Origin: Acidimicrobiia bacterium
GTDB lineage: Bacteria > Actinomycetota > Acidimicrobiia > Spongiisociales > Spongiisociaceae
DNA length: 64,000 nucleotides
Reading direction: 5' to 3'
NCBI GenBank assembly: GCA_003229305.1
Contig: QIDH01000058.1
Coordinates: 27,774 to 91,773, forward strand
The notes under the pieces are model-generated. The model worked only from the letters and a program-made list of their open reading frames with translations, did not search any database and was not told the origin of the DNA. A program made the translations under genes and the position numbers. Positions 9,467 through 64,000 of the stretch are shown one piece after another; position 1 is the first letter of the stretch, and each line of letters opens with the position of its first letter.

Positions 9467-11403
9467 CAGTCGGCATCCACGCCGGCGACCAGGGGCGTTG
9501 GACTGCCACCAAGGAGCTGCGTCAGGATCCGGGCGGCGGCCGGGGCCGCTACTGCACCTCCCGAACCTCCCTCGTCAACCATCACCACAACAACGAACTC
9601 AGGGTTGCTGATTGGGGCAACGCCGGCGAACCAGGCCGTTGCTGCGTGCCGTAGCCCCTCTGCATCAACGAAACCCTGAGCGGTACCGGTCTTGCCTCCC
9701 ATTTGGAGCTCGAGACCGTCCAGCCCTGAAAAGGCGGCCGCGGCCGTTCCGCCTGTGCGAACCACCGAACCCATGTCGGCCAATAGGCTCGCAACGACGG
9801 ACGGGTCGATTTCTGGGGTCCGCAATGGGCGTGGCCCAAAATCTCTCACAATCTCGCCGTTGGCATCCACGATCTTGTCTACAACCTGGGGTTGGTAGAC
9901 GGTGCCGCCGTTGACCATCGTCGCGTATGCGGTGGCCAGCTGAATCGGCGTGACAAGAATCGATCCCTGCCCCACAGCCAAGTTCATCAGATCGCCACCA
10001 AGCCAGCCCTCCTGCCTGACCCGCCATGGCTGCGTGACCTGCCACTCGTCGAAGAGTTCACGGTCTGGCAGGATGCCGGCGGTCTCGAACGGGAGATCGA
10101 CCTGGGTCCTGCGCCCAAACCCAAGCACCGATGCCCAGTCTTGAAGGATATCTTCGTCTTCTGTGCCCTTGAAATCGCGCCAGATCGAGAGGGCGAGCTC
10201 CCAGAAGTAGATATTGCACGACCGTCGAAAAGCGTCGTGGATGTTCTGGAACCCGTCTGACGCCCTCGTCCAGTTCTGGTAGACGAGCTGGGAGTCGTCC
10301 ACGAAGTCGGCCCTCAGCTGAGCAGAACACTCGATCGTCTGCTCTACGCTCGTCGTATCCCTAGGAAATATGCCTTCCATCATCGCGGTGATGTAGGTGA
10401 CGGCTTTGAAAGTCGACGCCGGCGGCTTTAGACCTTGTATCGCCAGGTTGTTGAAGGCGAAGTCCTCGGAAAGGCTCGCGAACTCGTCCTCACCGATGCC
10501 GCCGACAAAGGCCTGGGGCTCAAACGACGGATACGAGCCCATGGCAACGATCTCGCCAGTGTCAACCCTCATCACCAGCGCCGTCGCTCGCTCCGTCGGC
10601 AGCGTTCTCCTATCGGCCGGTTCCTTTTCGTCCTTGCGGTCTTGAGCGAGCACAATGACGTCGGCCAGGATCTGTTCGACGACCCGCTGAGTGACCGAAT
10701 CGATCGTTAGCCAGAGGGTATCTCCCTGAACCGGATCGGATGCGTCCACCTGGTCGAGGATGTCTCCCTGGGCGTTGATCGTGTATCTGACCAGGCCTGG
10801 GGTTCCCTGCAGAAATGTGTCGTATTCTCGTTCCACACCAAGCTTGCCAACGACAACGTTGGGATCGAGGTCTGGGTTCCGCTCCAGATCACCACTCGAG
10901 GGAAGGCCTATGTGGCCAAGCACGTGGGCCATCAAAGAGCCTTCGAGGTAGAGGCGCTCTGGCAAGGCCTCGACAGTGACACCAGGCAGATCGAGACGCT
11001 GCTCCAAAACCGTGTATGCCATGTCTGCGGTGATATCCATGTCCGAAATGAAGGCGACCTGGCCACTGCCGGCCCTCTCCAATTCGGATCGAATCACGAT
11101 TGGGCCGACTTCGAGAATCGCCGACAGCCGCGAAACCACCTGATCCTCGGCTTCGTTGCTGAGTACGGCTCGGTCCACGACAACTACCAGCTCTGAGCGG
11201 CTGGTCGCAAGAGGGATCCCGTTGGCATCGACTATGTCGCCCCTCGGAGCGATCTGGGATTCCGTAGCGATGGTGCTGTTTTCCGCCGCTGCCGCATAGA
11301 GGGCTCCTTCAGCGAGTTGAACAAACCACAAGCGGACAAACAACACCGAAAGCAGGCCGGCAAAAACCACGCCAAGGGTTGCTAGACGCCAACCAAACCT
11401 CAT
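9466..11403 (-). CDS. mrdA: Penicillin-binding protein 2 (transpeptidase)
   Basis: 'GLKPPASTFKAVT' (SxxK), 'GGKTGTAQ' (KTG), N-terminal TM; next to rodA. Confidence 0.94.
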   Translation of the reverse strand: MRFGWRLATLGVVFAGLLSVLFVRLWFVQLAEGALYAAAAENSTIATESQIAPRGDIVDANGIPLATSRSELVVVVDRAVLSNEAEDQVVSRLSAILEVGPIVIRSELERAGSGQVAFISDMDITADMAYTVLEQRLDLPGVTVEALPERLYLEGSLMAHVLGHIGLPSSGDLERNPDLDPNVVVGKLGVEREYDTFLQGTPGLVRYTINAQGDILDQVDASDPVQGDTLWLTIDSVTQRVVEQILADVIVLAQDRKDEKEPADRRTLPTERATALVMRVDTGEIVAMGSYPSFEPQAFVGGIGEDEFASLSEDFAFNNLAIQGLKPPASTFKAVTYITAMMEGIFPRDTTSVEQTIECSAQLRADFVDDSQLVYQNWTRASDGFQNIHDAFRRSCNIYFWELALSIWRDFKGTEDEDILQDWASVLGFGRRTQVDLPFETAGILPDRELFDEWQVTQPWRVRQEGWLGGDLMNLAVGQGSILVTPIQLATAYATMVNGGTVYQPQVVDKIVDANGEIVRDFGPRPLRTPEIDPSVVASLLADMGSVVRTGGTAAAAFSGLDGLELQMGGKTGTAQGFVDAEGLRHAATAWFAGVAPISNPEFVVVVMVDEGGSGGAVAAPAAARILTQLLGGSPTPLVAGVDAD

Positions 11404-60791: not shown

Positions 60792-61712
60792 ATGACAACG
60801 AAAGTCGTGCTGCTATCCGGCGGTGTTGGCGGGGCGCGCCTCGCAAGAGGCTTCGAGCAAATCACCGAGGTCGAGCTCACCGTCATCGTGAATGTCGGCG
60901 ACGACGATCGCTTCTATGGGCTCGACGTTTCACCTGACCTGGACACCATGATCTACACCCTCGCAGGGGTGGAGGGCGGCGAGGGGTGGGGGCGACAGGG
61001 CGACTCGTCGACCGTCATGGAACATTTGACCGCGCTCGGCATCGACACCCAGTTCATGATCGGGGATGCAGATCTGGCAGTGAATCTCTACAGAACGGAT
61101 CGAATACGCCGTGGCGACTCCCTCCAGGCGGTGACCGATCAGCTGGCGTCAACTCTCGGAATTAGTGCTCTCATCCTGCCTATGACCAATGATCGGGTCG
61201 AGACGCAGGTCAAGACGGAGGATGGCTGGCTGGGATTTCAAGAATATTTCGTTTTGCGCGGACATCGTGACGAGGTGCTCGACGTGAAGTTCGAAGGAGC
61301 CGCAGCGGCCGAACCCTGCCCAGGCGTGATCGAGGCCATCAGGGCAGCGGATGCCGTGGTCATCGGACCTAGCAACCCTCCTCTGTCGGTATGGCCGATC
61401 CTGGCGGTTCCAAAGGTCTCCGATGCGATTGCTCAGGCTCGCAGGGTCGTGGCGGTCAGCCCTCTCATCAGCGGCCGCCCGATCAAGGGCCCTGCGGACC
61501 GGGTTCTGCTGTCGCTCGGATTCAGCCCCGGCAATGTCGGCGTACTCGAAGCGTATGACGACCTGGTGGACGATCTCGTTATCGACACCCAGGATGGTCA
61601 CGAACGCTCCCGTCTCACCGAACGAGGGGTTTCGGTCCACGTTGGCAGCACCCGGATAGCCGAGCCCGAATCGGCGGCCACCCTCGCTCGTTGGATGCTC
61701 GAATTCGTATGA
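60792..61712 (+). CDS. cofD: 2-phospho-L-lactate transferase (F420 biosynthesis)
   Basis: 'KVVLLSGGVGGARLARGFEQ', 'VNVGDDDRFYGLDVSPDLDTMIYTLAG', 'IGPSNPPLSVWPILAV'; start after GGAGGACGGGA. Confidence 0.95.
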   Translation: MTTKVVLLSGGVGGARLARGFEQITEVELTVIVNVGDDDRFYGLDVSPDLDTMIYTLAGVEGGEGWGRQGDSSTVMEHLTALGIDTQFMIGDADLAVNLYRTDRIRRGDSLQAVTDQLASTLGISALILPMTNDRVETQVKTEDGWLGFQEYFVLRGHRDEVLDVKFEGAAAAEPCPGVIEAIRAADAVVIGPSNPPLSVWPILAVPKVSDAIAQARRVVAVSPLISGRPIKGPADRVLLSLGFSPGNVGVLEAYDDLVDDLVIDTQDGHERSRLTERGVSVHVGSTRIAEPESAATLARWMLEFV

Positions 61713-62413
61713 AGGTCGAACTGATCCCCGTGGAGGGGATCCCGGAGGCATCCTCAGGAGACGACGTTGCCGACCTGGTCATGGGTGGACTCTCTGCGTC
61801 TGGAATCGACTTGGTGGATGGCGATGTGGTGGTGGTCACCCACAAAATCATCTCAAAATCCGAGGGAAGGGTCGTTCCTCTGCAAGACCCTGGACCCGAC
61901 GGACATCGCTACCTGGTCGAGCGCGAAGCCAGCACGATCCTGAGGCGAAGAGGGTCGCTGGTCATCGCCAAGACCCGTCATGGGTTCGTGTGCGCCAACG
62001 CGGGGGTCGATCGATCGAACGTTGCGCCTGGCAACGCCTTGTTGCTACCGCTTGACCCTGACGCATCCGCCCACCGGATCAGGGTTCGCATCGAGCGGGC
62101 CCTCGGAGTTTCCATCGCAGTGTTGGTGACCGACACCTTCGGACGCGCTTGGCGGAACGGATTGGTCGACGTCACTATCGGCATCTCAGGCCTGATCCCA
62201 ATAGTCGACTACCGAGGCACCAAAGACACGCATGGCAACACGCTGGAGGTCACCGAGGTAGCAATCGCAGACGAGATCGCGGCCGCAGCAGACCTGGTGA
62301 TGGGCAAGGCAACAGGAATCCCGGCCGCGGTTGTCAGAGGCGTCGACTACCCGAAAGGCCCTGGTCGCGCCACAGACATGGTCCGCGATGCGTCCGAGGA
62401 CATGTTCCGGTAG
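61709..62413 (+). CDS. cofE: Coenzyme F420-0:L-glutamate ligase, stand-alone CofE
   Basis: 'VVVVTHKIISKSEGRVV', 'LPLDPDASAHRIR', 'VLVTDTFGRAWRNGLVDVTIGISGLIPIVDYRG'; ATGA overlap with cofD. Confidence 0.94.
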   Translation: MKVELIPVEGIPEASSGDDVADLVMGGLSASGIDLVDGDVVVVTHKIISKSEGRVVPLQDPGPDGHRYLVEREASTILRRRGSLVIAKTRHGFVCANAGVDRSNVAPGNALLLPLDPDASAHRIRVRIERALGVSIAVLVTDTFGRAWRNGLVDVTIGISGLIPIVDYRGTKDTHGNTLEVTEVAIADEIAAAADLVMGKATGIPAAVVRGVDYPKGPGRATDMVRDASEDMFR

Positions 62414-62857: not shown

Positions 62858-63015
62858 ATGAGCATGTGAGCCCACATCGAAGGGGGCGAACAATCTGACA
62901 TCATTTGGCACCCAAAGGTACACTCACGCCGAGGTTCTGGTCTCCTGACAAGACTGAGAAATCTCGCCCTTTCCCCTGGCAGACCTCTGTTTCTTGTCAC
63001 AGCCGTCTGATAATA

Positions 63016-63031
63016 TCGAACATATGTTCGA
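63016..63031. promoter_or_regulatory. LexA/SOS box
   Basis: TCGAACATATGTTCGA perfect 16-bp palindrome matching the actinobacterial/Gram-positive TCGAAC-N4-GTTCGA pattern. Confidence 0.8.
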
Positions 63032-64000
63032 CACACTGCTACAAGAAGAACCAGACACAGGAACAGGCGATGTGTCGACCGATGCCCGTGAACAACGCAT
63101 CTTGGACTGCGAACGGGTCATCGCCCAACTGCGCTCCTTGCAAGCCCAAGAACTCGCAGTATTGGACCGCCAACAGGTAGCGGCCGCCGACGGTGCCAGA
63201 ACCCTGGTCGAATGGTGCGCCGCCCGCTTCGACGTCTCCCGCCAGGCTGCCCGCGATCTGGTATTGGTCGCCCGGAGCCAACATTCCGACATCAACATGG
63301 CGTTGGCAGACGGTGACATCAACTTTGACCGTGCCACCCAAACCACTCGTTTGGCCAACACCGGCTTTGCCGATGCTCTGCAACGCACCGCCGGCTACGA
63401 CGTCGGAGCACTCAAACGGCTCCGCATCTCCAGAGAACCGCTGGCCCCAGGCGACGAAACCGACATCCATGAGCACCGCAGCCTGGCCCTGCAACCCCGC
63501 CTCGACGAATCGCACTACACCGGATGGCTCACCATGGCCGGCACAGACGCCAAACTCCTAGAAACCGCTCTGATGCGCCGAGCCGAGCAACTAAGCCAAG
63601 AGTTGCCCGATGGCACGGTCCTGTCTCGTGGGCAGTTGCTGCACGACTCTCTGGTCGACATGGCCACAGACGACCTCGCCCAAAGCGCCCAAGGTGTGGA
63701 TAGTCCTGGGGCGATCATCTCAGTGTTCGTCGACCCCCAACCAGCCCGGACCGGCCAACCGGCCAGAACCGGTGACCGCCAGCCAGCCGCGCCAGCACCG
63801 GTGGTCCGGCTCGACAACGATGTTCGGATCGGACCAAACGCTTTGCAACAACTCCTCTGCGGTGGAGCTGTCGTGGAACTCAACCAGAGTTCCGAACCGC
63901 TCGGAGTCGGCAGAACTAGCAAGGCTGTTCCCCCCAGACTCAAACGATGGGTCATCCACCGCGACCTCGGCGCCTGCACCATCGCGGGATGCAACTCGAC
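63024..64000 (+). CDS. DUF222/13E12-repeat family protein (probable HNH endonuclease), 3' truncated by window end
   Basis: ATG 63024, open to the edge: MFDTLLQEEPDTGTGDVSTDAREQRILDCERVIAQLRSLQAQELAVLDRQQVAAADGARTLVEWCAARFDVSRQAARDLVLVARS...RWVIHRDLGACTIAGCNS; absent from the ORF track because no stop is reached. Confidence 0.85.
   Translation, partial: MFDTLLQEEPDTGTGDVSTDAREQRILDCERVIAQLRSLQAQELAVLDRQQVAAADGARTLVEWCAARFDVSRQAARDLVLVARSQHSDINMALADGDINFDRATQTTRLANTGFADALQRTAGYDVGALKRLRISREPLAPGDETDIHEHRSLALQPRLDESHYTGWLTMAGTDAKLLETALMRRAEQLSQELPDGTVLSRGQLLHDSLVDMATDDLAQSAQGVDSPGAIISVFVDPQPARTGQPARTGDRQPAAPAPVVRLDNDVRIGPNALQQLLCGGAVVELNQSSEPLGVGRTSKAVPPRLKRWVIHRDLGACTIAGCNS

Follow-up and report, generated by a model that had tools for sequence, protein, structure and literature searches.

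A candidate double DNA-damage switch at multicopy DUF222/HNH genes of actinobacteria: a PafBC-type promoter joined to a LexA box that covers the start codon

The analysed window, a stretch of 64,000 nucleotides from an Acidimicrobiia bacterium (contig QIDH01000058.1), ends in a multicopy DUF222/HNH gene that is probably headed by a fused double damage switch, that is, a leaderless promoter that would be activated by PafBC and blocked by LexA. A LexA (SOS) box, the perfect palindrome TCGAACATATGTTCGA, occupies 63016-63031 (no strand assigned) and contains the ATG of the gene (63024-63026, plus strand); it was assigned by the exact match and by the same motif at repair genes. The -10 element TAATAT (63011-63016, plus strand) has the TANNNT form kept at this position in boxed and unboxed relatives, and the LexA box begins with its last T, as in nearly all boxed genes. 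Exactly 12 nt before the -10 element, at 62995-62998 on the plus strand (about -28 to -25), stands the TGTC of a PafBC/RecA-NDp-type promoter. The complete promoter string TTGTCACAGCCGTCTGATAATAT lies at 62994-63016, and its form in the window is TGTCAC-N10-TANNNT. The first-pass annotation of this DNA had proposed a palindromic LexA site around the start codon with a -10-like element upstream. The palindrome with the ATG inside it was confirmed and the -10 element is real, being best read as TAATAT, but the TGTC had been overlooked, and judged from these elements the control of the gene is probably dual, of LexA and PafBC type.

The LexA box stands out from the background of the genome. In the window, 63016-63031 is the single exact site of TCGAACNNNNGTTCGA, and the number of further matches with one or two mismatches (eight) falls inside the range of shuffled sequences. 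In the window's genome assembly (G000), eight exact sites of TCGAACNNNNGTTCGA were found against about 0.12 expected by simple arithmetic from 12 fixed bases and 1.95 Mb, while the looser pattern GAACNNNNGTTC occurs at 38 places. Six of the eight boxes lie over the ATG that starts a DUF222/HNH gene, always in the register GAACNN-ATG-TTCGA; a genome scan thus adds five boxed genes (L012, L020, L022, L033 and L035) to the one in the window. The remaining two lie 27 nt upstream of a gene for a dnaE2-like polymerase (PHP, DNA_pol3_alpha) and about 60 nt upstream of a gene for an exonuclease/GIY-YIG protein. Since the box is also found at these two repair genes, it can be taken as a mark of damage genes in this organism, and within this assembly only the nuclease family has it on the start codon. 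The pattern TCGAACNNATGTTCGA was found in 119 of the 138 genomes of the order, and a control pattern read backward gave almost none. Boxes also precede the lexA genes of relatives, mostly with one or two mismatches. The LexA-site consensus given in the first-pass annotation, TCGAAC-N4-GTTCGA, is therefore matched exactly in the window and present at two repair genes of the genome, and the comparison with recA and lexA promoters that it had proposed gave LexA-like sites before both genes in relatives, often with one or two mismatches. An open reading frame for a 2OG-Fe(II) oxygenase (AlkB-like; L092, 1501-2096) likewise has its initial ATG within a LexA box, with TATCAT immediately upstream.

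A palindrome that includes coding sequence could be maintained by a PafBC-driven gene for reasons other than LexA binding, for instance by selection on the MFD codons, because ATG TTC GA encodes MFD or MFE, the N terminus of all boxed proteins. We regard this explanation as very improbable: the upstream half TCGAAC, which is non-coding, is just as invariant, and the palindrome is non-coding before the dnaE2-like gene and occurs with mismatches before lexA and recA genes.

Both regulators are widespread among the relatives of the organism. LexA was found in 55 of 59 relatives and PafC in 56 of 59, each of them in all 41 of the good-quality relatives and in the congener (G001). In the assembly that holds the window (112 contigs, 72% complete), LexA, RecA and PafC gave no match, which is consistent with the incompleteness of the assembly. 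A genome without LexA had been named in the first-pass annotation as grounds against its reading, and this is literally what the assembly presents, but the assembly, at 72% completeness, gives no RecA match either, and the congener has LexA.

The PafBC-type element is defined by its spacing. In Mycobacterium tuberculosis the PafBC motif is TGTC(GG/AG/AC)-10N-TA-3N-T (PMC8151990), and the spacing of the window element, which has the TGTCAC form, is identical. PafBC places sigmaA-RNA polymerase on promoters that have a -26 element instead of a -35 element (PMC11804915). The arrangement TGTC-N12-TANNNT was found in 20 of the 23 boxed genes of subfamilies A and B, or in 22 if GTC is accepted, and for the other spacings between 6 and 18, TGTC is seen in at most one of them. 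At a spacing of 12, TGTC was present at none of 19 other boxed sites and in none of five genes of the C subfamily. The arrangement does not depend on the box: 26 of 30 unboxed A-type DUF222/HNH relatives of the order, nearly all of which were collected by homology and not by motif, carry TGTC-N12-TANNNT, as do 16 of the 17 recA promoters of the order with readable upstream sequence, most of which have a separate LexA-like site further upstream. The conservation check in homologues suggested by the first-pass annotation thus had a divided outcome, the PafBC-type promoter being widespread in the order and the LexA box variable. From these promoter sequences, the leaderless PafBC-type promoter seems to have the wider distribution in the order, while the LexA box is present in some relatives and missing from others.

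The C subfamily (L077, L080, L081, L134 and L135) has the box on the start codon together with a TTGACG sigmaA-type promoter and no TGTC, which suggests that it is under LexA control alone. This combination indicates that the two inputs are separable. It also fits a simpler account of the window gene as a plain SOS gene, in which LexA alone matters and TGTC-N12 is merely the ordinary promoter of the family, retained by descent without any role of PafBC. The mitomycin C induction of five HNH endonuclease genes of M. tuberculosis, which is RecA-dependent (PMC8151990), points in the same direction. We nevertheless consider this account unlikely, because the spacing of TGTC-N12-TANNNT is kept between subfamilies that are only about 25% identical, because the element is present without a LexA box in the great majority of the unboxed relatives, and because it also stands at recA of the same order. 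Another way to overlap both inputs is seen at L175, in a genome from another family of the phylum (G175), where the -10 element TACTGT lies inside the LexA box TCGAACTACTGTTCGA behind TGTC-N12.

The distance between the -10 element and the start codon is 7 nt in the window and 6-9 nt in most matching relatives, and in unboxed relatives the ATG usually follows the -10 element after 6-7 nt. A start codon a few nucleotides after the -10 element leaves no room for a ribosome site. The distance stays the same when the box is absent, and no other observation speaks more strongly for a leaderless transcript; the 7-nt gap and its retention in relatives support the near-leaderless start proposed in the first-pass annotation. 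The transcription start would accordingly lie at 63023-63025 on the plus strand, at or next to the A of the ATG. The true start of the gene could also be elsewhere in the N-terminal region.

We propose the following mechanism for the fused switch. TGTC, about 26 bases before the start, would let PafBC activated by single-stranded DNA recruit sigmaA-RNA polymerase to a promoter that lacks a good -35 element. The -10 element would run directly into the LexA operator, at roughly -7 to +9, so that uncleaved LexA would block the polymerase and at the same time cover the start codon. The position of the box, over the edge of the -10 element and both starts, agrees with the earlier suggestion that bound LexA would sit on the transcription start and the start codon together. 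The first transcribed base would be the A of the ATG or one beside it, which would give an mRNA without a leader. Full expression would need cleavage of LexA through RecA plus activation by PafBC, an AND gate that would read single-stranded DNA by two routes. Whereas the elements, their fixed spacing and their conservation are observed directly, we infer the binding of both proteins and the AND logic from them. The product would belong to a multicopy set of DUF222 proteins that carry an HNH domain at the C terminus, and would most likely serve as a DNase only during DNA damage.

The last base of the window is the last base of the contig, and the gene runs off it: only the 5' part is present (63024-63998, plus strand; 325 aa, MFDTLLQEEP...), and it stops short of the HNH motif. 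The 325-aa fragment alone gave no match to a Pfam family, and its assignment in the first-pass annotation to the DUF222/13E12 HNH family, 13E12 and DUF222 being names for what we take to be one family, rests instead on full-length paralogues, which contain HNH and partly DUF222. L012, L020, L033 and the window gene share 73-75% identity among themselves, and the three paralogues continue to the HNH motif. The HNH domain scored above the Pfam cut-off in L012, L033 and L022, and DUF222 did so in L022 and L041; the DUF222 score of L012 (21.4 bits) was below the cut-off of 24.4. L022 and L035, in which DUF222 and HNH are clear, belong to another subfamily that shares about 25% identity with the first. 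HNH domains are thus present in the paralogues, from which a nuclease activity of the window product may be expected. L041 (351-1460, contig C55 of the same assembly) is a 38% identical DUF222/HNH gene that starts with MFS and has neither an exact box nor an exact TGTC-N12-TANNNT. A search for related loci in genome contigs returned three. The proteins of L012, L020, L033, L043, L022 and L035, from two distant DUF222 subfamilies, end in PP followed by the stop codon, an ending that is common in alignment A4. Upstream of the nuclease gene in the window, the open reading frame at 61691-62413 resembles, by eye, an F420-biosynthesis gene (CofE/FbiB-like).

Several features bear on what the product does. 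A damage-triggered defence or self-killing nuclease would suit the tight double lock and the weak resemblance of the HNH part to modification-dependent McrA enzymes. No convincing match to a defence family was found, however, and the neighbours of the copies, which were only skimmed, included no obvious partner or immunity gene, so that we view this role as rather improbable. The AlphaFold model of L012 (pLDDT 78.8, pTM 0.47) gave no fold match at E below 0.001; its weak matches, to ParB/Noc DNA-binding domains and to McrA HNH, were not counted as evidence.

The alternative in which these genes form a selfish, homing-like or repeat element whose spread is timed to DNA repair is somewhat less doubtful, yet still unlikely. 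A complete genome of 2.46 Mb from another order of the class (G153) contains 30 modules, some copies are broken, and where several G153 copies resemble one another in DNA, the resemblance reaches upstream no further than TGTC or a few bases from it. Upstream similarity could, however, have been lost through long divergence by itself, and the flanks inspected around G153 copies had no shared ends or duplications. L020 and its counterpart in the congener (L043) adjoin the same open reading frame, prolyl-tRNA synthetase-like by eye, and from this shared neighbour at least the L020 copy was inherited in place. dN/dS between copies was 0.15-0.31, a range that indicates purifying selection on the gene copies. 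The mobile-element idea of the first-pass annotation is therefore left without direct support by the syntenic copy in the congener and these dN/dS values. The similarity between G153 copies stops about 100 nt before the stop codon. A candidate explanation, that copies take their stop codon from flanking DNA, was dropped, because the copies have a conserved end in common, which follows a variable linker.

The fused arrangement of TGTC-N12, -10 element and box seen in the window extends well beyond this organism. All 20 DUF222 genes examined in G153 carry the fused module with the box on the start, and a reversed-pattern control found none in this genome. The 30 modules of G153 are L198-L217, L382, L395, L401, L403, L405 and L407-L411; the 20 DUF222 genes are 60-94% identical over the part compared. 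Across the phylum the fused module was found in 13 of 398 genomes and the control pattern in none. Among the 30 modules listed from the phylum, most open a DUF222/HNH frame, and the rest open short or broken frames. Outside G153, the TGTC-N12 spacing was present in 8 of 40 sampled DUF222 genes of the phylum, and the fused module is thus common in some lineages and absent in others.

Eight viral contigs also contain the full module. In six of them the box starts the gene of a small HExxH protein, and the five of these proteins that were run against Pfam all match M78 peptidase. These prophage-type contigs (L258, at 10535-10953, L259, L260, L262, L263 and L265) carry TGTC-N12-TANNNT-CGAACNNATGTTCGA at the start of an M78 (ImmA/IrrE-type) peptidase gene, with the start ATG in the box as in the DUF222/HNH genes, although the peptidase, found by motif search in viral contigs, is unrelated to the DUF222/HNH protein. 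In another viral contig (L264) the same TGTC-N12-TANNNT-box module starts an HD-domain protein. In a sample of viral contigs with a bare box and ATG, the TGTC-N12 element was present at 0 of 80 sites, and this result makes it unlikely that the eight fused-module matches are background. The fused module measures about 40 bp, counted from TGTC through the last base of the box. Whether it serves as a reusable actinobacterial damage AND gate, standard for the DUF222/HNH family and acquired independently by the prophage M78 peptidase genes, is in our judgment evenly balanced.

Parts of this system have precedents. The 13E12 (REP13E12) HNH genes of M. tuberculosis are part of the LexA regulon (Davis 2002 and Smollett 2012, cited in PMC4181829), so that LexA control of this family is already known and the core idea of the first-pass annotation is not new. 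The window gene resembles them in being part of a multicopy HNH family with LexA boxes of the same consensus; we found no description of M. tuberculosis 13E12 genes in which the box covers the start codon and is joined to a PafBC-type promoter. The mycobacterial recA has two promoters, the PafBC-dependent P1 and the LexA-dependent P2 (PMC5656591, PMC8223512), and genes with both a RecA-NDp motif and an SOS box are known (PMC8223512). As is proposed for the window gene, both damage pathways act on recA, and the TGTC-N12-TANNNT motif is the same. At recA, in this order too, the LexA box stands apart as its own site, whereas here a single promoter would hold both inputs and the start codon within about 40 bp. 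The lexA gene of M. tuberculosis was shown by experiment to be leaderless (PMC2897130), and it is a damage gene whose translation start coincides with the transcription start, as we expect from the spacing at the window gene, which is a different gene. We found no description of a fused PafBC and LexA start-codon architecture over a large gene family in the open-licence literature, which is weak evidence of absence.

The two DNA-damage pathways of actinobacteria have usually been seen as running side by side, each with its own site at genes that both control, for instance recA. In the present case a single promoter seems to bring the two together, the LexA operator covering the start codon, and as many as 30 copies of it occur in one genome; this candidate double switch heads dozens of related genes across actinobacteria as well as some prophage genes. 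The combination of LexA release with PafBC activation becomes directly testable with a 40-bp module, which also offers a regulatory handle on the long-unexplained DUF222/13E12 proteins.
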